DNA of 64,000 bases from Peptococcaceae bacterium BRH_c8a (lineage in GTDB: Bacteria; Bacillota; Desulfotomaculia; Desulfotomaculales; Desulfallaceae), in the NCBI GenBank assembly GCA_000961575.1, contig LADP01000024.1, positions 1 to 64,000 on the forward strand. Direction: 5' to 3'. Shown here piece by piece: positions 28,464 through 39,116 of this stretch. How positions within the stretch are numbered: position 1 is the first letter of the stretch; every line of letters starts with the position of its first letter. The notes under the pieces were generated by a model. It was not told where the DNA came from. It searched no databases and was given only the letters and a program-made list of their open reading frames with translations. Both the position numbers and the translations under genes were made by a program.

Positions 28464-29867
28464 GTGCAAAAGGATAATATCAGGGCATTGATAGTCGGTG
28501 CCGGTTTTGCCGGCAGCTTGGCTTACCAGGCCTTGCAGGAGCATAAAGATGAGCGGGTTCCGGTAGGTTTTGTTGATGATGATGATCAAAAGAACGGCTC
28601 CGATATTGATGGGCTCCCGGTTTTAGGGAACCGGTTCGCTATTCCCGCTATTGTTAAGAAGCATAAAGTTAATGAAATCATCATCGCCATGCCTTCAACC
28701 CCCTCGGCCGAAGTCAGTAAAATAGCGGAAATTTGCAAGAAAACAAACGCCAGGGTTAAAATTTTGCCCGGAACTTATGACCTGATTACTGGCAATATTC
28801 AACTGGCGCCAATACGTGATGTTCGGCTGGATGATCTGCTGGGCAGAGAGCCGTTATTGCTGGATACCGAGGAAATAGTAAAATACCTGCATAACGAAGT
28901 GGTTTTAATAACCGGCGCAGGGGGTTCGGTGGGTACCGAACTGGCTGTCCATGCCGGCAATAATAACCCCCGCCAGCTGATTTTAATGGGGCGGGGAGAA
29001 AATAGTATCTTTGAGGTCGAGCAAAAACTTAGGTATAGCCATCCGCATGTTAATATTGTCAGTGAAATTGGGGATATCAGGGATCAAGGCAGGATGCGCA
29101 GGTTGTTTTGTAAATATGAACCCGGCGTTGTATTTCATGCTGCGGCCCACAAGCATGTCCCCTATATGGAAAGGAACCCGGAAGAAGCCGTTAAAAACAA
29201 TATTATTGGCACCAAAATCGTTTGTGAAACCGCGATGAATACGGGCTGCAAGAAATTTATACTGGTTTCCACCGATAAAGCAGTGAAGCCAACCAGTGTG
29301 ATGGGGGCCAGTAAAAAAGTTGCGGAAATGATTGTACTGCTAATGAATGATCTGGGCCCGACCAAATTTGCCGCAGTGAGGTTCGGCAATATTTTGGGCA
29401 GCAGGGGAAGTGTGCTGCCCTTGTTTGAAAGACAAATAGCCCAGGGCGGTCCGGTAACTATTACGCACCCTGAAATGACCCGCTATTTTATGACGGTAAA
29501 CGAGGCCGCTCAACTGGTAATCCAGGCGGGAGCAATGGCCGTAGGCGGCGAGGTTTTTATCCTGGATATGGGTGAACCGATCTGCATCAAAGAGCTGGCC
29601 CTAAAGCTGATTAAAATGAAAGGTCTGCGACCGTTCAAGGACATAGCCATTAAATATATTGGAGTCAGGCCCGGTGAAAAAATATCCGAAATTCTAACTT
29701 CGGAGCAAGAAATAGTTGAAATTACCAAGCATAAAAGAATTTTATCTGTGCTCAACAAAAAAGTAGATCATCGTCAAGTTAAAGACATGCTGTATCAATT
29801 TCAGCATCCGCAGTTTACCTACCGGGATGAAGAAATTGAAGCTTTATTGAAAACCCTGACTGATTAG
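28464..29867 (+). CDS. Soluble UDP-sugar 4,6-dehydratase of the PglF/CapD/FlaA1 family
   Basis: 467 residues. An N-terminal Rossmann-like domain (VGAGFAG, 11-17) is followed by an SDR domain with TGAGGSVG at 150-157, STDKAV at 269-274 and VMGASKK (Met280, Lys284). Met in place of the usual Tyr is normal for PglF/WbpM-type dehydratases. Those enzymes normally carry four N-terminal membrane helices of about 150 residues; none is present here and the gene starts cleanly with GTG after GAGAGGG, so this is a soluble form. With the aminotransferase at 37291 and acetyltransferase at 38487 it could make a bacillosamine-type UDP-diacetamido sugar. Confidence 0.87.
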   Translation: MQKDNIRALIVGAGFAGSLAYQALQEHKDERVPVGFVDDDDQKNGSDIDGLPVLGNRFAIPAIVKKHKVNEIIIAMPSTPSAEVSKIAEICKKTNARVKILPGTYDLITGNIQLAPIRDVRLDDLLGREPLLLDTEEIVKYLHNEVVLITGAGGSVGTELAVHAGNNNPRQLILMGRGENSIFEVEQKLRYSHPHVNIVSEIGDIRDQGRMRRLFCKYEPGVVFHAAAHKHVPYMERNPEEAVKNNIIGTKIVCETAMNTGCKKFILVSTDKAVKPTSVMGASKKVAEMIVLLMNDLGPTKFAAVRFGNILGSRGSVLPLFERQIAQGGPVTITHPEMTRYFMTVNEAAQLVIQAGAMAVGGEVFILDMGEPICIKELALKLIKMKGLRPFKDIAIKYIGVRPGEKISEILTSEQEIVEITKHKRILSVLNKKVDHRQVKDMLYQFQHPQFTYRDEEIEALLKTLTD

Positions 29868-29870
29868 GCA

Positions 29871-29923
29871 CAAACCTGGTTACCAGGCGCTGATTGTCAT
29901 GGCGTCGGTAACCCGGTTTTTTT
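29871..29923 (+). terminator. Terminator after the dehydratase gene
   Basis: AAACCTGGTTACC and GGTAACCCGGTTT arms (one mismatch) with a 22-nt loop and TTTTTTT. Confidence 0.7.
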
Positions 29924-30020
29924 ATGCCAGTTCCATACCCCGGCGGGCACAGGATAAAGTAACACAAAAATGGCCTCCTACATAATCTATAAAACATTAC
30001 AAATTAGGAGGAAAAAGGTT

Positions 30021-31385
30021 ATGCAGGTAACCATTGCCGGGGCTGGTTATGTTGGTTTAACCACCGGGACAGCCCTTGCTTTTTTGGGTCACCAGGTAAC
30101 CCTGGTTGACAAAAACATAGATATACTCGACAAGCTTAGAAACGGCGAAATCACCATCTATGAGCAGGGGCTAGAACAATTAATGAATGATAATATCGCC
30201 AACATTACCTTTGCTTCATCCTTTGCCGGTGTTAGTGCATCGCAGGTGGTGATCATTGCCGTGGGGACACCTTGTAAAAACAACGGGGATGCTGATTTAA
30301 GCTACCTGGAAAACGCGGTACTGGAACTTTCAAGCCAGCTTAAGGGAACTCCGTGTCCTTTGCTGGTCAATAAATCGACGGTGCCACCGGGGACAGCCCG
30401 CCGGGTTAAAACACTGGTGCAAAACCACCTGTCAGGCAGGGTGGTTTGTACCCCTGGGGTGGCATCAAACCCTGAATTTTTACGTGAGGGAAACGCTTTA
30501 ATTGATGCTTTGTACCCGGATCGCATTGTCGTTGGTGCCGATAGTGAACTTGATTTTGAACTGTTGCAGGAGCTTTATGAACCCATTCTGAAGCAAAATT
30601 TTGTACCGCCCGCTTACCTACCGCGACCGCAGGGCATGCAAAAACCGGTATTGTTTCAAACCGACCCCACCAGCGCAGAGTTAATTAAATACGCCGCCAA
30701 TGCCTTCTTAGCTATCAAAATATCTTTTATTAACGAATTTGCCGGGTTGGCGGAACTGCTTAACGGCGACATCGGTGCCATTGCCAGGGGTATCGGGCTG
30801 GATCGGAGAATTGGCCATGCTTATCTCCAGGCCGGTGTGGGCTGGGGCGGAAGTTGTTTCGGCAAGGACGCCAGGGCTATAACCTATACCGCCAGGAAGT
30901 ATGGTTATTCCCTGCCCCTGGTTGAGGCAGCCCTGGCGGTCAACGACAGGCAACGGCAGGCAGTGGTGTGGAAACTGCACCAGGCGTTAAAAGCCATTCC
31001 CGGCAGTAATATAGGCATTCTGGGACTGGCCTTCAAGCCTGACACCGATGACGTGCGTGATACCCCCGCCGCCGACGTTATCAGGGAACTGCTTAACCTG
31101 GGCGCCCATGTCAAAGCGTTTGATCCCATGGCTACCGAGAACTTTAAAATAAACTTTCCCGGCTTAAAAGTTGAGTATCACGACACGGTTGAAGACCTGG
31201 TGGCGGGTTGTGACGCCCTGGTATTGCTTACAGAATGGGGTCAGTTTACCAAACTACCCTGGCCCGAGTTGCGCCGCTCCATGCGCCATAACGTGTTTAT
31301 AGACGGCAGGAACTGCCTTGATGAACAATCCCTGGTGCAGGCCGGGCTGGTGTACTTAGGTATGGGGCGCCGCACCAGGTTGTAG
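30021..31385 (+). CDS. UDP-glucose/UDP-N-acetylglucosamine 6-dehydrogenase family
   Basis: 454 residues. NAD-binding GAGYVGL at 7-13, Lys223 in SAELIKYAANAFLAIK and the catalytic Cys279 in GWGGSCFGKD identify a two-step UDP-sugar oxidase that makes a uronic acid. The Ugd/TuaD-like N-terminus favours UDP-glucose as substrate, giving UDP-glucuronate; a UDP-GlcNAc substrate, needed by the WlbA-like triad, cannot be excluded. The ATG at 30021 has TTAGGAGG 8 nt upstream; the frame is open 17 codons further but without support. Confidence 0.9.
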   Translation: MQVTIAGAGYVGLTTGTALAFLGHQVTLVDKNIDILDKLRNGEITIYEQGLEQLMNDNIANITFASSFAGVSASQVVIIAVGTPCKNNGDADLSYLENAVLELSSQLKGTPCPLLVNKSTVPPGTARRVKTLVQNHLSGRVVCTPGVASNPEFLREGNALIDALYPDRIVVGADSELDFELLQELYEPILKQNFVPPAYLPRPQGMQKPVLFQTDPTSAELIKYAANAFLAIKISFINEFAGLAELLNGDIGAIARGIGLDRRIGHAYLQAGVGWGGSCFGKDARAITYTARKYGYSLPLVEAALAVNDRQRQAVVWKLHQALKAIPGSNIGILGLAFKPDTDDVRDTPAADVIRELLNLGAHVKAFDPMATENFKINFPGLKVEYHDTVEDLVAGCDALVLLTEWGQFTKLPWPELRRSMRHNVFIDGRNCLDEQSLVQAGLVYLGMGRRTRL

Positions 31386-31476
31386 CCGGCGACCGCTAGC
31401 AGCTGAACAAATGCCCCGGCCACGGCATAGAATGCTTTAATCGTGGGAGTGACTTTAAAGGCAAGAGGGAACGCTT

Positions 31477-32151
31477 ATGACCCGGTGGGAGGCTGCCATC
31501 AAGAGAATACTGGATGTTTTGATCCCGTGTGCGCTGATCTTAATACTGCTGCCCTTGTTTATGATGGTGGCGCTGTTGATAAGGCTGGATTCCCAGGGCG
31601 GCGTGATTTACAGGCAGGCCCGGGCGGGTAGAAACGGGGCCCCTTTTTACTTGTATAAGTTTCGCAGCATGGTCGTCAATGCAGAACATCAGGGCGCCGG
31701 GTATTACTTCTCCGGGCCTGATGACCCCAGAATCACCAGGGTGGGCCGGGTGCTGAGGAACACCAGCCTTGACGAGTTGCCGCAGCTTTTTAACGTATTA
31801 AAAGGTGACATGAGCATTGTTGGCCCCAGGCCTTGCCTGCCCTACCAGGTGGAGCTTTTCAATGTCCGGCAACAGAGAAGGCTGGAGGTAAAACCGGGGA
31901 TTACTGGCTGGGCCCAGATTAACGGCCGCAATAATCAGAGTTGGTCTAAAAGAATAGAGTATGACCTGTGGTATCTGGATCATTACAGCCTGTGGTTGGA
32001 CTTTAAAATCCTCTTTAAAACTATCGGGGTGGTTTTTTCGGGCAGCGGCATCAGCTATGACGTAACCCCCGAGAAAATGGAGGATTTCGGGCCCCCGGGG
32101 GCACCGAAAAAGGACGGTGGCAGTGAGGTCCGATCCGTTAGAGGTAAGTAA
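31477..32151 (+). CDS. Initiating phosphoglycosyl transferase (PglC/EpsL-type)
   Basis: 224-residue monotopic sugar-1-phosphate transferase. An N-terminal re-entrant hydrophobic helix (about 11-36) is followed by KFRSMVVNAE, the catalytic Asp-Glu pair in SLDELPQLFNVLKGDMSIVG (Asp99, Glu100) and VGPRPCLPYQ, then KPGITGWAQINGRN. It moves a phospho-sugar from UDP to undecaprenyl phosphate and so starts each repeat unit. It lacks the N-terminal domains of WcaJ-type enzymes, like PglC, which uses UDP-bacillosamine. Confidence 0.92.
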   Translation: MTRWEAAIKRILDVLIPCALILILLPLFMMVALLIRLDSQGGVIYRQARAGRNGAPFYLYKFRSMVVNAEHQGAGYYFSGPDDPRITRVGRVLRNTSLDELPQLFNVLKGDMSIVGPRPCLPYQVELFNVRQQRRLEVKPGITGWAQINGRNNQSWSKRIEYDLWYLDHYSLWLDFKILFKTIGVVFSGSGISYDVTPEKMEDFGPPGAPKKDGGSEVRSVRGK

Positions 32152-32174
32152 CCGAAAGGGGATACCATCTGCCA

Positions 32175-32891
32175 ATGGCTCTTAATAGCAAAATACTTGT
32201 ACCGGGCTGTAGCCTACCCGGTGCTATCCCACTTACTGAAAACCATGTCCACACCACCTTCAGCGACGGGCGAAACACCGTGGAAGAGTACGTAAACGCC
32301 GCTTTGCAGCAGGGAATCAAAAGTATGGTCTTTACCGAACACGTAAACCGGGGTTGTCCCTGGTTCGACGATTACATTAATGAAATTAAAAGAGTACGGC
32401 GTAAATACGTCCGGCATATTGAGGTTTATGCCGGCATCGAGGCCAAGACGCTAGATTTTAACGGCAGCATCGACGCTACCAGAGAGATGATGGCGGCCTG
32501 CGACGTGGTGGTGGGGGTGGTACACCGCTGTCCCGACCCCGCAGGTGGGATGCTGGAATACACCGAACTTGACGGTTCGACGGCCCAGTATCTGGAATAT
32601 AGGGCGGCCAAGGGTTTGCTGGAAAAAGGGGACATTCATATACTGGGACACATGGGCGGCATGCACGAGTATTTTTACGGTCCCTTTCCCGACCCGCTGT
32701 ATTTAAGCTTAATCCGTATCGCCCACAAGAAAGGCTGCGCTGTTGAATTAAACGGCAGGCACCACCCCCGCCTGAGCAAACTTGTGGCCTACTGCCGCCG
32801 GTATAATCCCTGGGTCTCCCTGGGTTCCGATGCTCATGATACCGGGGAAATCGGGTTAATCCACCGGCGCCTTAAGGAGTTGAACATTTAG
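32175..32891 (+). CDS. PHP-domain phosphoesterase/amidohydrolase-like protein
   Basis: 238 residues with the PHP metal-binding motifs: ENHVHTTFSDGRNTVEEYV near 22-40, TEHVNRG, GIEAKTLD, the ILGHMGG segment and the C-terminal SLGSDAHDTGEIG. The family includes histidinol phosphatase, so a phosphatase role is likely, but the substrate is unknown. Its stop codon TAG overlaps by one base the GTG start of the ATP-grasp gene, which implies coupled translation and a joint role. It would suit removal of phosphate from a small precursor used by the next enzymes. Confidence 0.8.
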   Translation: MALNSKILVPGCSLPGAIPLTENHVHTTFSDGRNTVEEYVNAALQQGIKSMVFTEHVNRGCPWFDDYINEIKRVRRKYVRHIEVYAGIEAKTLDFNGSIDATREMMAACDVVVGVVHRCPDPAGGMLEYTELDGSTAQYLEYRAAKGLLEKGDIHILGHMGGMHEYFYGPFPDPLYLSLIRIAHKKGCAVELNGRHHPRLSKLVAYCRRYNPWVSLGSDAHDTGEIGLIHRRLKELNI

Positions 32892-33865
32892 TGCAAGATA
32901 CCATACCGGTTTTAATTACGGGCATGGGCGGTGCCCTGGGGATCAGCTTTCTTAAAGCCTTGCGTATGTCCAGTTTTCCGTGCCAAGTTTTTGGTACCGA
33001 CGTGGAGCCACTGGCCGTGGGACTGCACATGTGTGACGCCGCCTATATTTTACCAGACTCCCGCACCGAGCCCGACACATACCTGGCCAAACTGGTTGAA
33101 CTATGCCGGGCCCAAAAAATACGTATTCTTTTTGCCGGTTCGGAAGTCGAAATGCGGCTGCTGGCACGGCACAAGAAAAGGTTAGAAAAGGAATCCGGGG
33201 CCGTAATGTTGGTCAACGGGGCGCAAGTAACTGAAACGGCCTGTGACAAGTGGAAGACAGCCCAATTCCTGCAAAAAAAAGGTTTGCCCGTACCGGATTC
33301 GGTGCTGCCCGAGCGCCAGCAAGATCTGGCCCGGCTTATTGAGCGACACGGTTACCCGCTCATTGTAAAACCCAGGTCTTCATACGGCTCCCAAGGGCTT
33401 TATTTGGTGCCCGGGGAGCGGGAGCTAAACGCGGCCCTGGTGCTGGTTAAAAAGGCCATCGTTCAGGAATACCTGACCCCGGACGACCAGGAATACACGG
33501 TGGGCGTGTTTATGGATCAAAAAAGCCGTCCCTTGGGATCAATTATCTTCCGCAGGTGGCTGGGCGGCGGGCTTACCCACAGGGCCATCGTGGTTAAAAA
33601 CCCGGTCATTGAACATACGGCCAGGCAGGCCGCCGCAGCCTTTAAAGCCGTGGGCCCCATCAATGTGCAACTGCGGTTGACGGCAAGAGGGCCGGTAATC
33701 TTTGAAGTTAACCCGCGGATGTCCAGCAGCACAGTAATGCGCGCTTACTTTGGCTTTAATGAACCCGAACTGGCTATCAGACAGTTCGTGCTGGGCGAGC
33801 AAATAACCCCGCCCAGAGTTAAAGAAGGTATCGCTATGCGCTACTGGGAGGAGTTGTATATCTAG
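32891..33865 (+). CDS. ATP-grasp ligase (carbamoyl-phosphate-synthase-like), first of two
   Basis: 324 residues. The N-terminal pre-ATP-grasp domain (VLITGMGGALGISFLKALR) is followed by ATP-grasp with YPLIVKPRSSYGSQGLYLV (phosphate-binding loop), IVQEYLTPDDQEYTVGVF and the metal site VIFEVNPRMSSSTVM. Such enzymes activate a carboxylate as acyl phosphate and join it to an amine or similar nucleophile. It is translationally coupled to the PHP gene and followed 43 nt later by a PLP decarboxylase. Substrates unknown. Confidence 0.82.
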   Translation: MQDTIPVLITGMGGALGISFLKALRMSSFPCQVFGTDVEPLAVGLHMCDAAYILPDSRTEPDTYLAKLVELCRAQKIRILFAGSEVEMRLLARHKKRLEKESGAVMLVNGAQVTETACDKWKTAQFLQKKGLPVPDSVLPERQQDLARLIERHGYPLIVKPRSSYGSQGLYLVPGERELNAALVLVKKAIVQEYLTPDDQEYTVGVFMDQKSRPLGSIIFRRWLGGGLTHRAIVVKNPVIEHTARQAAAAFKAVGPINVQLRLTARGPVIFEVNPRMSSSTVMRAYFGFNEPELAIRQFVLGEQITPPRVKEGIAMRYWEELYI

Positions 33866-33908
33866 ACGTGCCGTATTACTTGCCGGTGCGCGCCGGGAGG
33901 AAAGACAT

Positions 33909-35150
33909 TTGAACATAACCTGGTCCTTGATTCGTGAGCTGGAGGAAAAAGTAGGGGGAGGATCGTTTTACCTGCTGGACTTGGCCCGGTTTAGGCAAAA
34001 CTTCCGGGACTTATTGACATCCTTTACCGAGCGGTACCCGGGTAGCAGCATTGCTTATTCGTATAAAACCAACTATATTCCGCGGTTGTGCAGGCTGGTT
34101 GAGCAAATGGGCGGGTATGCCGAGGTTGTCTCACTTTTGGAATACGAGTTGGCCGAACGCATCGGCGTCAACCCCCGGAAAATTATTTATAATGGGCCCT
34201 GTAAGGGGTTGGCCGGCATTGAAAAAGCCCTGCTGGCCGGGTCTGTTGTCAACCTGGACTCATTGGGTGAGGTGCACCTGGTGGAAGACGTGGCCGCCAG
34301 GTACCCCGATCGTCTTTTTCCCGTGGGCCTGAGGTGTAATTTCCCGGTGGAACCCGGCCTTGTTTCCCGCTTTGGTTTTGACATTGACGGTGCGGAATTC
34401 GGGCGGGCATTGAAAATTATTGGCGGGATGGCTAATTGCCGCCTGAGCGGGCTGCACTGTCATTTCCCCACGCCGCATAAAAGTCCGGCCTCCTACGCCC
34501 GGCGTACCGCTAAAATGGTGGAACTTTACCGTGCCCATTGCCGGGGCGGCAACGCGGGGTTTTTAGACATTGGCGGGGGGTTTTTTAGCCGCATGAATGA
34601 TTCCCTGGCCGCGCAGTTTCCCTTTCCCATACCTGGTTTTGATGATTATGCGCAAGCTATTGCGCCACAACTGACCAATGCTTTTCCCGACGGCGGGGGC
34701 CCTGAGCTGATACTGGAACCTGGAACCGCGCTGGTTGCTGATACCATGTACTTTGTAACCAAGGTCGTTGATTGCAAGGAAGTGGGCACCCAAAGGGTGG
34801 CCCTGGCCGCGGGCAGTGTGCATAATATCAAGCCCACGCTGCATAATAAAAATCTACCCCTGCAGGTAATCGGGAAAAACGGTTTCGGTGGCCAAACAGG
34901 GGGCCGCTGTACGGACATAACGGGCTATACCTGTCTGGAGAACGACTATTTATACCGGGGTTACGATGGAGCAATTGATGCCGGGGACTACCTGGTTTTT
35001 GGTAACGTGGGTGCTTATACCGTCGTGCTTAAACCTCCGTTTATCCGCCCCTCCCCCGCCATCGCAGCCTATGATGCCGGCCCGGGTAGTTGCGAAGTCG
35101 TAAGGCGGCCTGAAAGTTTTGCCGATGTGTTCGGTACTTACGTAATTTAG
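33909..35150 (+). CDS. Fold-III PLP decarboxylase (diaminopimelate/ornithine decarboxylase-like)
   Basis: 413 residues. SIAYSYKTNYIPRLCRLV holds the PLP lysine, GLHCHFPTPHKSPASYARR and LDIGGGFFSRMN are the phosphate-binding parts, and ILEPGTALVADTMYFVTKV matches the C-terminal barrel of LysA-like decarboxylases. Such enzymes remove the carboxylate from D- or meso-configured or basic amino acids. Lying between two ATP-grasp genes it probably feeds an amine or modified amino acid to them and not general lysine synthesis. The TTG start follows GGGAGGAAAGACA. Confidence 0.83.
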   Translation: MNITWSLIRELEEKVGGGSFYLLDLARFRQNFRDLLTSFTERYPGSSIAYSYKTNYIPRLCRLVEQMGGYAEVVSLLEYELAERIGVNPRKIIYNGPCKGLAGIEKALLAGSVVNLDSLGEVHLVEDVAARYPDRLFPVGLRCNFPVEPGLVSRFGFDIDGAEFGRALKIIGGMANCRLSGLHCHFPTPHKSPASYARRTAKMVELYRAHCRGGNAGFLDIGGGFFSRMNDSLAAQFPFPIPGFDDYAQAIAPQLTNAFPDGGGPELILEPGTALVADTMYFVTKVVDCKEVGTQRVALAAGSVHNIKPTLHNKNLPLQVIGKNGFGGQTGGRCTDITGYTCLENDYLYRGYDGAIDAGDYLVFGNVGAYTVVLKPPFIRPSPAIAAYDAGPGSCEVVRRPESFADVFGTYVI

Positions 35151-35166
35151 GAGACATTAGTAAATA

Positions 35167-35300
35167 GTCAGGAGTCAGGAACAAATATAGATTGTTTACG
35201 GTGTTTTTCATAAGCCAGACCTATTTGCAAGAGGTTAGTTAATTGCTGTAAGTATATTTTTTTTAATTCTGACTACTGACTACTGACTACTGACTCCTAA
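35167..35300. repeat. Intergenic palindrome, GACTCCTGACTCC family
   Basis: Left side AGTCAGGAGTCAGGAAC, right side AATTCTGACTACTGACTACT continuing as tandem GACTACT units and GACTCCTAA. It interrupts the otherwise tightly packed cassette between the decarboxylase and the second ATP-grasp gene. Confidence 0.75.
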
Positions 35301-35338
35301 ATTCTAAAATATTATTACTTGGCCGGGGAGTGTCATCT

Positions 35339-36349
35339 TTGATTAACATTCTGGTTACCAGCGTAGGTAAAAGAGTAGAATTGCTGCGTTATTTCAAGGC
35401 TGAACTGGCCGGTATAGGCGGAAAACTGGTTGGCGCTGACCGGGACCGGATGGCGCCCGGCCTTAATTTTACCGATTTCTCCTATGTAATTCCCGGGATA
35501 TACGACCAGGATTACTTGCCCAGGTTGTTGGATATCTGTCGTAAGGAACAAATTAAGGCGGTATTGTCGCTAATTGACCCGGAATTATCGGTGCTGGCCC
35601 ACAACAGGGCGCTATTTGAACAGGCCGGCGTATGCCTTGTAATTCCCGGCGCCGAAGCGGTGGAGGCCTGTTATGACAAGTACGCTACCCAGGCTTTGCT
35701 GATGCGGCGGGGGATGGAGCACATTAAAACATACCGCGGTCTTGACGAGTTCAACGACCGCAGCGCTGCAGGGGAAGTGGCCTTCCCGGTGGTCGTTAAA
35801 CCCAGCTTCGGCAGCTCAAGTCAGGACGTTTATATTGTGCAAAACCATCAGGATTTGGTGTGTTTATATAACCGCGTGGACCGCCCGATTATCCAGGAGT
35901 TTATCGCCGGCCGTGATTATTCTGCAGATGTTTACGTTGATCTGGTAACCAAAGAGCCGGTAGCGGTATTTACCAAATTAAAACTAAGCGTTACCGGTGG
36001 TGGAGCAGATAAAGCCCTAGGTGTATATGAACCTGTTCTAGAGGAGTTTGCTGTGCATATGGCCCAGGAATTTGAACTGTTGGGGCCGGTGGACATGGAT
36101 TTCTTTTGGTCGGGTAACAGGCTGGTTTTAAATGAAATAAACCCCAGGTTTGGGGGTGGGTACCCGCTGGCGCATCATAGTGGCTTAAATTTCATTAACC
36201 TGTTAATTAATAATTTACAAGGCACAGCTAACAAAACCGCCCTTGGCAATTATAAACCTGGTGTAAGCATGGTTAAATATGATGGTTATTTTTTTAAAAA
36301 TGAACCAGATTGTGCCCTCATCTGCCCCGAGAGTGGTGAGTCCGGGTGA
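35339..36349 (+). CDS. ATP-grasp ligase, second of two
   Basis: 336 residues. INILVTSVGKRVELLRYFK begins the pre-grasp domain; FPVVVKPSFGSSSQDVYIV, IIQEFIAGRDYSADVYVD and LVLNEINPRFGGGYPLAHHSG are the ATP-grasp motifs. Sequence differs clearly from the first ATP-grasp protein, so the two probably catalyse different steps. TTG 35339 is preferred to GTG 35330, which lies directly against the GGGGAG ribosome site. The stop overlaps the GTG start of the LCP gene by 4 nt, tying this enzyme to cell-wall attachment of the polymer. Confidence 0.82.
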   Translation: MINILVTSVGKRVELLRYFKAELAGIGGKLVGADRDRMAPGLNFTDFSYVIPGIYDQDYLPRLLDICRKEQIKAVLSLIDPELSVLAHNRALFEQAGVCLVIPGAEAVEACYDKYATQALLMRRGMEHIKTYRGLDEFNDRSAAGEVAFPVVVKPSFGSSSQDVYIVQNHQDLVCLYNRVDRPIIQEFIAGRDYSADVYVDLVTKEPVAVFTKLKLSVTGGGADKALGVYEPVLEEFAVHMAQEFELLGPVDMDFFWSGNRLVLNEINPRFGGGYPLAHHSGLNFINLLINNLQGTANKTALGNYKPGVSMVKYDGYFFKNEPDCALICPESGESG

Positions 36350-37266
36350 AGGTTAAAAATTCATTAGTTATTATGGTGTCTATCCTAATTTTACTCCTTG
36401 CTGCAGGGGCAACAGTGGCCTACGTTACCGGTTGGGTACCGGGTTCGCAGAATTCTCCCGGTATAACTGAGCATATTTCCCCCGCCGTGGACGACGGCAT
36501 AGACCAACAGTGGCTGGAATTTACGCGGCTTGAAAAACCCATGAACGTACTAGTAGTGGGTATTGATAAAGCCAAGTCCATTAAAGGTGCTGCTCGGCCG
36601 GGCCCCTGGCGTTCAGATGTGCTCATGTTAATCCGGGTGGAACCGGTGGACGGATATGTTAACCTGCTGTCCATTCCCCGCGACACTAGGGCCTCTATTC
36701 CAGGCCACGGAACAGAAAAAATTGCCCACGCACACGCTTACGGGGGACTCCCTCTGACTGTGACTACGGTGGAAAACTTTTTGGGTATCAAAATCGATCA
36801 TTACCTGAGTGTTGATTTTGATACTTTCTTACACATAATCGATCTTGTCGGTCCTGTAGAAGTAGAGGTGCAACAAGAATTAAAAACACAGCACTTTCAA
36901 TTTTTCCCCGGCAGGCAAGAGATGGACGGTAAACAGGCTTACGAGTACGTGACCAACCGTGACGAACCAATGGCCGATATTGCCCGTATCCAGAGACAGC
37001 AACATTTTTTGCTGGCCCTACTGGAAATTGTGCAGCAAAAGGCAAACAGTCTGGATTTGTTAAGGCTGTATATGGAATATGCCAGACATGCGGAAACTAC
37101 GCTTACTTTTACTGACGTGGGAAGGCTGGCGCTTATAGCTCTGGATATTGCAAAGGATGAAGTAGTGCTGGTTACGCTGCCGGGCAAACCGCAATATATT
37201 AAAGGCGTCAGCTACTGGGTAGCTGATGAGAATTCCCTGGCCGAAATGGCCGGGATGTTCAAATAA
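36346..37266 (+). CDS. LytR-CpsA-Psr (LCP) family glycopolymer transferase
   Basis: 306 residues: one N-terminal membrane helix (about 6-28), then the extracellular LCP domain with MNVLVVGIDKAK, WRSDVLMLIRV, LLSIPRDTRASIPGHG, the KIAHAHAYGG segment and QEMDGKQAYEYVTNRDEP. LCP enzymes move lipid-linked glycopolymers onto peptidoglycan. The gene overlaps the second ATP-grasp gene, so the polymer made here is probably anchored to the wall. The start is GTG. Confidence 0.9.
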   Translation: MKVKNSLVIMVSILILLLAAGATVAYVTGWVPGSQNSPGITEHISPAVDDGIDQQWLEFTRLEKPMNVLVVGIDKAKSIKGAARPGPWRSDVLMLIRVEPVDGYVNLLSIPRDTRASIPGHGTEKIAHAHAYGGLPLTVTTVENFLGIKIDHYLSVDFDTFLHIIDLVGPVEVEVQQELKTQHFQFFPGRQEMDGKQAYEYVTNRDEPMADIARIQRQQHFLLALLEIVQQKANSLDLLRLYMEYARHAETTLTFTDVGRLALIALDIAKDEVVLVTLPGKPQYIKGVSYWVADENSLAEMAGMFK

Positions 37267-37290
37267 GGGACTCAAATCGGGGGAAAACAA

Positions 37291-38406
37291 ATGAAAATGG
37301 ATGTGCCACTCTCCCTGCCGGATATAGGCGAGCGGGAGCGGGAGGCTGTTGATGAAGTGTTGCGGAGCCGCTGGCTGAGTATGGGTCCGGTGGTGGCGGC
37401 CTTTGAGAACAAAATTGCTGAATATGTCGGGGTGCGGCAGGCCGTGGCCATTAACAGCGGCACCTCGGGTTTGCACCTAGCGGTGCGTGCCCTGGGGCTG
37501 GGTGAAGGTGACGAGGCCATCACCACTCCCTTTAGTTTCGTGGCTTCGGCCAACTGCCTGCTATTTGAACGGGTGCAGCCGGTTTTTGTGGACATTGACC
37601 CGCTGACATTAAATATTGACCCCGAACTGGTGAAGGTTAAAATTACTTCCCGTACCAGGTGCATTCTTCCGGTACACGTATTCGGACACCCGGCTGAAAT
37701 GGATGAACTAACCAACCTAGCCAGGCAAAACGGTTTGTTTATAATAGAAGATGCCTGTGAAGCCCTGGGCGCTAAGTATCACGGTAAGCAGGCCGGTAGT
37801 ATGGGTGACATGGCCTTATTTGCCTTTTACCCCAACAAACAACTCACCACCGGTGAGGGAGGGGTAATTCTCACCGACAGCGATCAACTGGCCGGGCTAT
37901 GCCGCAGTATGCGCAACCAGGGGCGGGACGCCGGCGATGAGTGGTATGAACACTCCCGTCTGGGCTATAACTACCGCATGGATGAGATGAGCGCGGCGCT
38001 GGGTTGCGCGCAATTGTCCAGGGTAACCGAAATTTTGGCTAAACGACAGGCAGTGGCCAAGATGTACAACGAAAGACTGAGCGGCCTTGACGGTGTTACC
38101 GTGCCCTATGTGGCGCCCGGCGTTGAAATGAGCTGGTTTGTATATGTAATCCGGTTTGATCCGGCAATTAACCGGGATCTGGTGATGAAAGAAATTGCCG
38201 GTCGGGGGATCGGCTGTCGGGCCTACTTTCAACCTATTCACCTGCAGCCTTTTTACCGCCGGAGTTTTGGCTTTGGGCCGGGCGATTTCCCGGTTACAGA
38301 AGCCGTAGCAGCCACCACCTTGGCCTTGCCTTTTCATAACCACCTGACTGCAGAAGAAATTGATTATGTGGTAACAAACCTGGCCGAAGTAATCGGCCAA
38401 TGCTAA
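37291..38406 (+). CDS. DegT/DnrJ/EryC1 sugar aminotransferase (PglE-like)
   Basis: 371-residue PLP enzyme: SLPDIGEREREAVDEVLRS, INSGTSGLHLAVRALGLG, EDACEALGAKYHG and the PLP lysine in FAFYPNKQLTTGEGG, which is the form common in PglE/WbpE-type enzymes acting on UDP-4-keto sugars. With the PglF-like dehydratase and the NeuD/PglD-like acetyltransferase it can account for a UDP-4-amino-4,6-dideoxy sugar. Distinct from the aminotransferase at 24363-25523, which belongs to the other amino-sugar set. Confidence 0.88.
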   Translation: MKMDVPLSLPDIGEREREAVDEVLRSRWLSMGPVVAAFENKIAEYVGVRQAVAINSGTSGLHLAVRALGLGEGDEAITTPFSFVASANCLLFERVQPVFVDIDPLTLNIDPELVKVKITSRTRCILPVHVFGHPAEMDELTNLARQNGLFIIEDACEALGAKYHGKQAGSMGDMALFAFYPNKQLTTGEGGVILTDSDQLAGLCRSMRNQGRDAGDEWYEHSRLGYNYRMDEMSAALGCAQLSRVTEILAKRQAVAKMYNERLSGLDGVTVPYVAPGVEMSWFVYVIRFDPAINRDLVMKEIAGRGIGCRAYFQPIHLQPFYRRSFGFGPGDFPVTEAVAATTLALPFHNHLTAEEIDYVVTNLAEVIGQC

Positions 38407-38486
38407 TCAAACCGCTTATGAGTATTCAACAGCCGTATTGATGTTGTGCTGTGGAAAAATGGCATCTGAAAAAAGGGTTTTGAAAT

Positions 38487-39116
38487 ATGAAGCAACTTGT
38501 TATCATTTGCGCTGGTGGAATTGGCAGAGAGGTGGCCTGGTTGGTTGAAAGGCTCTATTTGGCTGACCATTTTCCTTATAGATTTGTAGGTTTTGTTGAT
38601 GATCAAGTGAGGGATACGGTTGAGGGTTACCCCATCCTGGGTAATATTAAATGGTTAGAGTCCCAAACTAATAAGCCTGATATTGTTTGCGCTTTGGGTG
38701 ACCCAATAAAGCGTTATACGGTTTGTAAGAATTTAGAAGCTGCCGGGTTTAAATTTGCAACACTAATTGACCCTTCAGTGCAAATGTCAAAGCATGTTTA
38801 TGTTGGCGAAGGTTCATTAATTTTTGCAAACTGTGTCCTGACTACCAATGTAACAATTGGAGCCAATGTTATAATAAGTCCTTCCTGCACAATCGGTCAC
38901 GATACAACTATAGGTGAATACGTTAGCATTATGCCAGGGGTTAATATTGCCGGGAATGTAAATATTGGCAAATATGTTTTTATTGGCATAGGTGTAAGAG
39001 TAATAAATAACCTTAAAATAGGTGATGAGTCATTAATTGGTGGTGGTGCAACTGTCACTAAAGATATACCGAATAAAGTTGTTGCCGTTGGTACGCCGGC
39101 AAAGCCAGTTAGATAA
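38487..39116 (+). CDS. NeuD/PglD-family sugar acetyltransferase
   Basis: 209 residues. An N-terminal Rossmann-like domain that binds the UDP sugar (MKQLVIICAGGIGREVAWLV) is followed by a left-handed beta-helix of hexapeptide repeats (TIGANVIISPSCTIGHDTTIG, ending VAVGTPAKPV). PglD acetylates UDP-4-amino sugars, NeuD sialic acids; the first is favoured by the neighbours. The usual G-x-G-G motif reads CAGGIG here. The DNA is more AT-rich than the genes before it, so this end of the island may have a different origin. Confidence 0.88.
   Translation: MKQLVIICAGGIGREVAWLVERLYLADHFPYRFVGFVDDQVRDTVEGYPILGNIKWLESQTNKPDIVCALGDPIKRYTVCKNLEAAGFKFATLIDPSVQMSKHVYVGEGSLIFANCVLTTNVTIGANVIISPSCTIGHDTTIGEYVSIMPGVNIAGNVNIGKYVFIGIGVRVINNLKIGDESLIGGGATVTKDIPNKVVAVGTPAKPVR

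Follow-up and report, generated by a model that had tools for sequence, protein, structure and literature searches.

The enzymatic decoration of surface glycans through amide bonds is already of a known kind. In the teichuronopeptide of alkaliphilic bacilli, a uronic-acid wall polymer is joined with amino acids via an ATP-grasp enzyme, TupA; we know of no decarboxylase or PHP gene in that system. In the butirosin pathway, the ATP-grasp ligase BtrJ is the partner of BtrK, a decarboxylase. While the HS:2 capsule of Campylobacter jejuni is growing, its glucuronate is amidated with serinol phosphate or ethanolamine phosphate by an ATP-dependent amidoligase, after which a phosphatase removes the phosphate (PMC12409886). 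In Clostridioides difficile ribotype 027, the ATP-grasp protein CDR20291_0245 is required for the taurinyl-Ala-Gly amide on Fuc3N, and its gene adjoins FemAB and lies near a DegT-type (FdtB-like) gene (PMC5207246, PMC5207245). Here, we describe a four-gene cassette at positions 32175–36349 of a 64,000-nucleotide stretch of Peptococcaceae bacterium BRH_c8a (contig LADP01000024.1, positions 1 to 64,000; the window, whose coordinates are used throughout). The cassette encodes a PHP-domain protein (PHP), a first ATP-grasp ligase (AG1), a pyridoxal phosphate (PLP)-dependent decarboxylase of the alanine-racemase fold (PLPdc) and a second ATP-grasp ligase (AG2), and a check of reading frames and sequences places it between genes for a sugar-1-phosphate transferase and an LCP-family protein. 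A first-pass annotation of this DNA knew of no described pathway with such a gene set, a view that is too strong, since the C. jejuni HS:2 capsule and the C. difficile type B flagellin use the same logic (PMC12409886; PMC5207246/PMC5207245).

Sequence comparison indicates that the cassette consists of two neighbouring gene partnerships, each conserved on its own, namely PHP with an ATP-grasp ligase and PLPdc with an ATP-grasp ligase. The first-pass annotation had read the four genes as one system; however, the set was not found conserved elsewhere, an outcome that the annotation itself had named as counting against its reading, and the two partnerships have separate distributions. In surveys of limited coverage anchored on PLPdc, AG1 and PHP, of which the latter two sampled the phylum and left Pseudomonadota genomes out, the four genes were found together nowhere else. 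PHP was found in none of 85 PLPdc loci, and at this coverage PLPdc was found neither beside AG1 relatives nor in the PHP–AG1 region of the Sinorhizobium meliloti megaplasmid pSymB. A single conserved four-gene unit was thus rejected.

The 85 PLPdc loci comprise the best 80 by PLPdc similarity, from a contig scan with a PLPdc alignment, and 5 from whole-genome searches. Within about 5 kb of PLPdc, an HpcH/HpaI aldolase is encoded in 65 of them and a class-IV aminotransferase in 63 (Pfam check), while an ATP-grasp gene stands beside PLPdc in 18, including loci of cyanobacteria, Methylococcales and Pseudonocardia. The aldolase/aminotransferase and ATP-grasp partners never occur together (0/85), and only two loci have neither, one of them (L039) at a contig edge. 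On the PLPdc tree, partner context requires one change, a count as low as this being reached in 0 of 500 shuffles, and the window falls on the ATP-grasp side. Elsewhere in the clusters, ATP-grasp genes number 1 in 1.03 Mb of aldolase-type loci versus 16 in 0.27 Mb of ATP-grasp-type loci. PLPdc and its neighbouring ATP-grasp gene are overlapping or contiguous, with a spacing of −19 to +27 bp at the 12 loci measured. These partner ligases span several subfamilies (PRK12767.1-5 for AG2, PRK12767.1-3 in cyanobacteria, another type in Methylococcales), so the association is with the ATP-grasp enzyme type itself, an argument for a chemical requirement. This decarboxylase family with two mutually exclusive partner sets is widespread across phyla and apparently undescribed; we found no description of it, or of the composite in the window, in the open-access literature, and no paper that brings an ATP-grasp, a PHP protein and a decarboxylase together in one glycan cluster in the part of that literature covered. 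No PLPdc was found in plasmid records.

Several of these loci have features of their own. The aldolase-type cassette (65 loci; e.g., L036, L037, L040, L042, L058 and L079) lies in glycan clusters of Bacillota and Bacteroidota, in the order HpcH/HpaI aldolase, PLP decarboxylase, sugar-1-phosphate transferase and class-IV aminotransferase. Beside one such cassette (L008:5668-9237) are genes that by eye resemble those of aminoethylphosphonate (AEP) synthesis, i.e., a cytidylyltransferase/phosphoenolpyruvate mutase, a phosphonopyruvate decarboxylase and an AEP transaminase. In cyanobacterial loci, a DegT gene comes after the PLPdc–ATP-grasp pair, and three of them (L028, L030 and L031) also encode a protein of roughly 1550 residues, which at L028:4019-8707 has formyltransferase, AMP-binding, luciferase-like monooxygenase and carrier domains. 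At L011:8394-10322, a NeuB-containing cluster encodes a fusion of a more distant PLPdc with a CMP-sugar cytidylyltransferase, and the fusion gene overlaps one for an ATP-grasp. Three Bacillota-type phage contigs (L118:5307-9006, L119:5349-8952 and L120:513-5152) carry a PLPdc homologue (30–35%) with one or two PylC-like ATP-grasps, together with a gene of weak similarity to beta-glucosyl-HMC glucosyltransferase (phrog_842, E 5.6e-4), next to a ParB-like gene; the group could be a DNA hypermodification set.

The second partnership was traced through PHP, which matches PF02811 at 52.6 bits (cutoff 26.4) and whose motifs HxH, EH, E, H, GH and SDAH look intact. By tblastn, relatives of PHP and AG1 are present in 76 and 77 plasmid records, respectively, nearly all of them Sinorhizobium megaplasmids, and in the records matching both the two matches are contiguous. 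In annotated pSymB, the PHP and AG1-type genes overlap by 4 bp, the ATP-grasp partner having 35–36% identity to AG1; the pair is flanked by cysD–nodQ–cysQ and an NAD-dependent epimerase, with glycosyltransferases, a sulfotransferase and Wzz near. SMb21227 has been named an ATP-grasp protein (PMC12542648) and SMb21225 has been grouped with nodP2/nodQ2 (Smb21223, Smb21224) (PMC2701930), which would make SMb21226 the probable PHP gene. Outside the window, the three best-matching relatives of PHP in Bacillota (L130–L132) adjoin an ATP-grasp gene in clusters with NeuB/NeuA-type, PIG-L and flagellin genes (names from BLAST labels and sequence reading); the weaker matches are mostly generic PHP or PolX proteins, and only the three best stand beside an ATP-grasp. 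AG1 groups with L020–L023 (98/95), and its relatives without PHP adjoin capD, UDP-glucose dehydrogenase (UGDH) or LpxC-like genes. No close relative of PHP or AG1 was found in GenBank phage records, and no PHP relative in viral contigs. Three clostridial-type flagellin/nonulosonic-acid clusters (L159:3631-14565, L160 and L161) have an ATP-grasp gene overlapping a PHP gene, along with PIG-L, radical SAM and NeuC/NeuB/NeuA-type genes; they are candidates for making a legionaminic acid that bears an amino acid, of the sort reported from C. botulinum.

Both ligases pass subfamily cutoffs of PRK12767 (AG1, 306.6 bits against 218 for PRK12767.1-1; AG2, 329.7 against 271 for PRK12767.1-5), and their ATP-grasp K/E/N motifs look intact. 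They are thus putative ATP-dependent carboxylate-amine ligases, in line with the first-pass annotation. AG2 groups with the PLPdc-partner ligases of cyanobacteria, Pseudonocardia and Spartobacteria (98). The AG2 model (pLDDT 86.5) gives no substrate reading, because the nearest solved structure is 2pn1 (Z 38.8, 2.3 Å, 301 residues), a protein of unknown function, followed by generic ATP-grasps including RizA and PylC.

In alanine-racemase-fold decarboxylases, an acid after the catalytic cysteine contacts the distal amine of diamino substrates. PLPdc matches PF02784/PF00278, and Lys53 (PLP), His185 (stacking) and Cys342 (catalytic) are invariant in its family, which has the signature GxTC[MIL]ExD. 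The residue after the catalytic cysteine is Leu343 in the window and M, I, L or V in 84 of 84 family members; the corresponding context is CESGD in the organism's own diaminopimelate decarboxylase (DapDC) and CMQHD in FslC. Because the acid is replaced by a hydrophobic residue, the substrate is unlikely to be a diamino acid whose distal amine is free. PLPdc falls below the cutoffs of both LysA (TIGR01048, 131.6 versus 297.9 bits) and FslC (NF041039, 100.4 versus 500 bits). The failed LysA cutoff and the missing acid bear out the view that it stands apart from the ordinary lysine and polyamine enzymes, on which the candidacy of the locus had been made to depend. By sequence, its closest solved relative is FslC, an N-citrylornithine decarboxylase. 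The fold list for the PLPdc model (pLDDT 88.5) amounts to a tie, with BtrK (Z 41.5, 2.5 Å, 377 residues) followed by FslC (Z 40.9, 2.6 Å, 387 residues) and several DapDCs at 40.8 and below. The missing distal-amine acid and the closest similarity suggest that PLPdc resembles the conjugate-acting decarboxylases. FigC, SbnH, AcsE, MccE and BtrK, on a branch unrelated to polyamines, all decarboxylate an amino acid that is already joined to a larger group (PMC7857480).

Compared with these described systems, the window cassette is alike in parts only. FslC and the other conjugate-acting decarboxylases have the fold and sequence family in common with PLPdc, and FslC too has a hydrophobic residue after the catalytic cysteine; however, FslC-type enzymes belong to siderophore and antibiotic pathways, whereas the PLPdc family is found in glycan clusters and differs by a signature of its own and by the absence of the EPGR Arg. 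BtrJ/BtrK likewise pairs an ATP-grasp ligase with the same decarboxylase fold, but BtrK works on a substrate attached to an acyl carrier protein, and we noticed no carrier-protein gene in the window cassette. The teichuronopeptide system is similar in combining a uronic-acid wall polymer with an ATP-grasp; its TupA-type ATP-grasp was not found at this locus. The likeness to C. jejuni HS:2 is one of function, in that a uronic acid, an amine maker, an ATP-dependent amide ligase and a phosphatase are all present, whereas HS:2 uses a HAD phosphatase, a single ligase and separate PLP enzymes, and has no LCP protein (PMC12409886). A general family scan, with no sequence comparison to Cj1435 or Cj1438, matched the HAD family in 0 of the 10 cluster genes. 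C. difficile CDR20291_0244–0247 is alike through its ATP-grasp ligase, which stands beside a DegT-type sugar aminotransferase and FemAB, but it has an ornithine cyclodeaminase in place of PLPdc, no PHP, a flagellin glycan rather than a wall polymer, and a PF13535-type ATP-grasp (PMC5207246, PMC5207245).

The cassette sits in a run of ten plus-strand genes (28464–39116) that extends from capD/PglF to NeuD/PglD (Table 1). The reading frames and the Pfam and NCBIfam assignments agree with the first-pass annotation that four adjacent genes of the named families lie in a glycan cluster, and the start/stop overlaps that it had claimed are present, with PHP and AG1 sharing 1 bp (TAGTG) and AG2 and LCP 4 bp (GTGA). 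AG1 and PLPdc are 43 bp apart and PLPdc and AG2 179 bp apart. The latter gap holds an inverted repeat with 42-nt arms and CTGACTA heptads, which has about 100 matches across the genome; because this repeat is dispersed, PLPdc and AG2 may earlier have been closer. Tandem arrays of the CTGACTA unit are found at 168.7–169.1 kb of contig C5, at the start of C7 and at 181 kb of C20 of the same assembly (G000). The dehydrogenase upstream had been called uronic-acid-forming; it is a nucleotide-sugar dehydrogenase by TIGR03026 (399.7 versus a cutoff of 189.8 bits), but it misses the TuaD cutoff (401.9 versus 700), so that UDP-glucose is only its likely substrate.

Table 1. Features of the wall-polymer cluster in the window
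Feature	Coordinates	Strand	Basis or remark
CapD/PglF-type NDP-sugar 4,6-dehydratase, soluble form	28464..29867	+	PF02719; syntenic in family relatives L113/L114
Nucleotide-sugar dehydrogenase, probably UDP-glucose dehydrogenase (uronic acid)	29970..31385	+	TIGR03026; 61–62% to syntenic relatives
Undecaprenyl-phosphate sugar-1-phosphate transferase (PGPT)	31477..32151	+	PF02397
PHP-domain putative phosphatase, YcdX/HisJ/PolX-C like	32175..32891	+	PF02811; metal-ligand motifs
AG1, putative ATP-grasp carboxylate-amine ligase, PRK12767.1-1 type	32891..33865	+	Cutoff passed
PLPdc, alanine-racemase-fold PLP decarboxylase of glycan-cluster family	33909..35150	+	PF02784/PF00278; TTG start
Dispersed inverted-repeat element, not part of the enzyme module	35144..35303	.	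Between PLPdc and AG2
AG2, putative PylC-like-N ATP-grasp ligase, PRK12767.1-5 type	35330..36349	+	Cutoff passed; structure model
LCP-family glycopolymer transferase (wall attachment)	36346..37266	+	PF03816; TIGR00350 above cutoff
DegT-family sugar aminotransferase, PseC/LegC-like	37291..38406	+	Family searches
NeuD/PglD-type sugar N-acyltransferase	38487..39116	+	TIGR03570 above cutoff

A matching cluster is present in two members of the family (G009 and G010; loci L113 and L114), with 46–75% identity to the window counterparts. One strand carries GT4, DegT, hexapeptide transferase and GFO genes, and the other carries capD, UGDH, a FemAB-like gene (PF02388/PF13480) that precedes the sugar-1-phosphate transferase, an epimerase and LCP. 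The epimerase occupies the transferase–LCP interval in which the window holds PHP–AG1–PLPdc–AG2. PLPdc was not found in the other 15 family genomes or in 112 class genomes (E 1e-40 and 1e-45), and its inheritance within the family was rejected at these thresholds. Since the relatives' genes differ at this site and lack PLPdc, the cassette is a part that varies and can be exchanged within an otherwise conserved wall-polymer cluster. The tie to the LCP gene proposed in the first-pass annotation thus holds here through the AG2/LCP overlap, but it is specific to this locus, the relatives having FemAB and epimerase genes instead.

Together, the products of the four genes probably decorate the polymer with amine-bearing groups derived from amino acids, and the chemistry proposed earlier, amino acids or amines in amide linkage, is supported as the most likely one. 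We tentatively favour a reading, which may well be right, in which the cassette is a swappable decoration module in a wall-anchored glycan cluster, where an ATP-grasp ligase would amide-link an amino acid and PLPdc would decarboxylate the conjugate, leaving an amine. The families, intact motifs, gene order, overlaps, recurrent partners and the exchange against FemAB and epimerase genes in relatives can be read from the sequences themselves, whereas every chemical step is one that we infer, and the steps are given in order of falling confidence. An undecaprenyl-linked repeat with a uronic acid and a 4-amino-sugar would be made and attached to peptidoglycan by LCP. AG2, and perhaps AG1, would activate a carboxylate as the acyl phosphate, so that an amino acid becomes amide-linked to the sugar or sugar nucleotide. 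PLPdc would then take CO2 from the alpha-amino-acid end of the conjugate, as FigC/FslC, SbnH and BtrK do, giving a primary amine by which the polymer would gain positive charge; in the aldolase-type branch, the aldolase and the class-IV aminotransferase would build the amino-acid end instead. Finally, AG1 may make a second amide, and PHP may take a phosphate off the substrate or product of AG1, in the manner of the phosphatase Cj1435 of C. jejuni. Decarboxylation of a conjugate is judged most likely because PLPdc resembles conjugate-acting enzymes and because the either/or choice of partners is thereby explained, as mutual exclusion would follow from two routes to the same amino-acid end. Several points weigh against this reading. 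Most ATP-grasp-type PLPdc loci have no nearby uronic-acid dehydrogenase. The PLPdc tree is a quick one with long branches, and its deep placement is unsure. PLPdc and ATP-grasp pair by enzyme type, without strict orthology, and at this locus the repeat-bearing gap parts PLPdc from AG2. The phage PLPdc/ATP-grasp pairs show that a wall glycan is not a necessary product.

The main rival, which we consider somewhat unlikely, follows the order known from Campylobacter, with PLPdc making a small free amine (e.g., an amino-alcohol phosphate), an ATP-grasp amidating the uronic acid, PHP removing the phosphate and the second ATP-grasp adding a substituent. HisJ-type PHP phosphatases act on an amino-alcohol phosphate, and PHP shows similarity to that family, although below its cutoff (TIGR01856, 54.0 versus 90.2 bits). 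A uronic-acid dehydrogenase lies in the same gene run, and C. jejuni HS:2 amidates GlcA with serinol-P or ethanolamine-P (Cj1438C) before the phosphatase Cj1435 acts (PMC12409886). However, the Campylobacter phosphatase is a HAD enzyme rather than a PHP enzyme (PMC12409886), which makes the parallel one of analogy only; moreover, PHP is absent from the PLPdc loci surveyed, UGDH is often missing from them, and the PLPdc family lacks the distal-amine acid and resembles conjugate decarboxylases.

It is quite unlikely that PLPdc and ATP-grasp make a small amide or amine metabolite, with the position in a glycan cluster incidental or serving export. FigC, SbnH and BtrK do belong to siderophore or antibiotic pathways (PMC7857480), and the phage contigs pair the two enzymes with no wall-glycan genes in view; but those contigs also hold the glycosyltransferase-like gene, and glycan clusters house the majority of the 85 relatives, of which 62 have a sugar-1-phosphate transferase within 5 kb of the PLPdc homologue. 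That recombination at a hot spot brought unrelated genes together by chance, with some of them now in decay, is very unlikely: the cassette does replace other genes in a syntenic cluster, contains a mobile-looking repeat and has no four-gene counterpart in the surveys made, yet none of its reading frames or motifs is broken, start and stop codons overlap between genes, and each of the two partnerships is seen again in distant phyla. We give the least credence, and very little, to ordinary enzymes, i.e., a lysine, diaminopimelate or polyamine decarboxylase, a CpsB-like tyrosine or histidinol phosphatase and housekeeping ATP-grasp ligases. All four proteins belong to superfamilies with such members, but PLPdc misses the LysA cutoff and the genome has a second DapDC-like gene elsewhere, the distal-amine acid is missing throughout a family whose glycan context is conserved, and PHP misses the HisJ cutoff and has no CpsB family among its matches.

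A wider proposal, unlikely as we rate it, extends the favoured reading of conjugate decarboxylation to the whole PLPdc family, which would be the constant core of an undescribed route to primary amines on biopolymers. An amino-acid end, installed by either ATP-grasp or aldolase plus aminotransferase, would undergo decarboxylation in situ; the targets would be wall glycans, exopolysaccharides and perhaps phage DNA, and the window would hold a composite adding the PHP/ATP-grasp pair. Databases label decarboxylases of this family "diaminopimelate decarboxylase" or give them no name. The strict either/or choice of partners makes the chemistry directly testable, and the Sinorhizobium PHP/ATP-grasp pairs offer a tractable laboratory host. 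If the proposal is true, many Bacillota, Bacteroidota, cyanobacteria and Pseudomonadota would put amines on their surface polymers via a dedicated decarboxylase, and metal binding, autolysin control and resistance to cationic peptides all depend on wall-polymer charge, as with the D-alanylation of teichoic acids.

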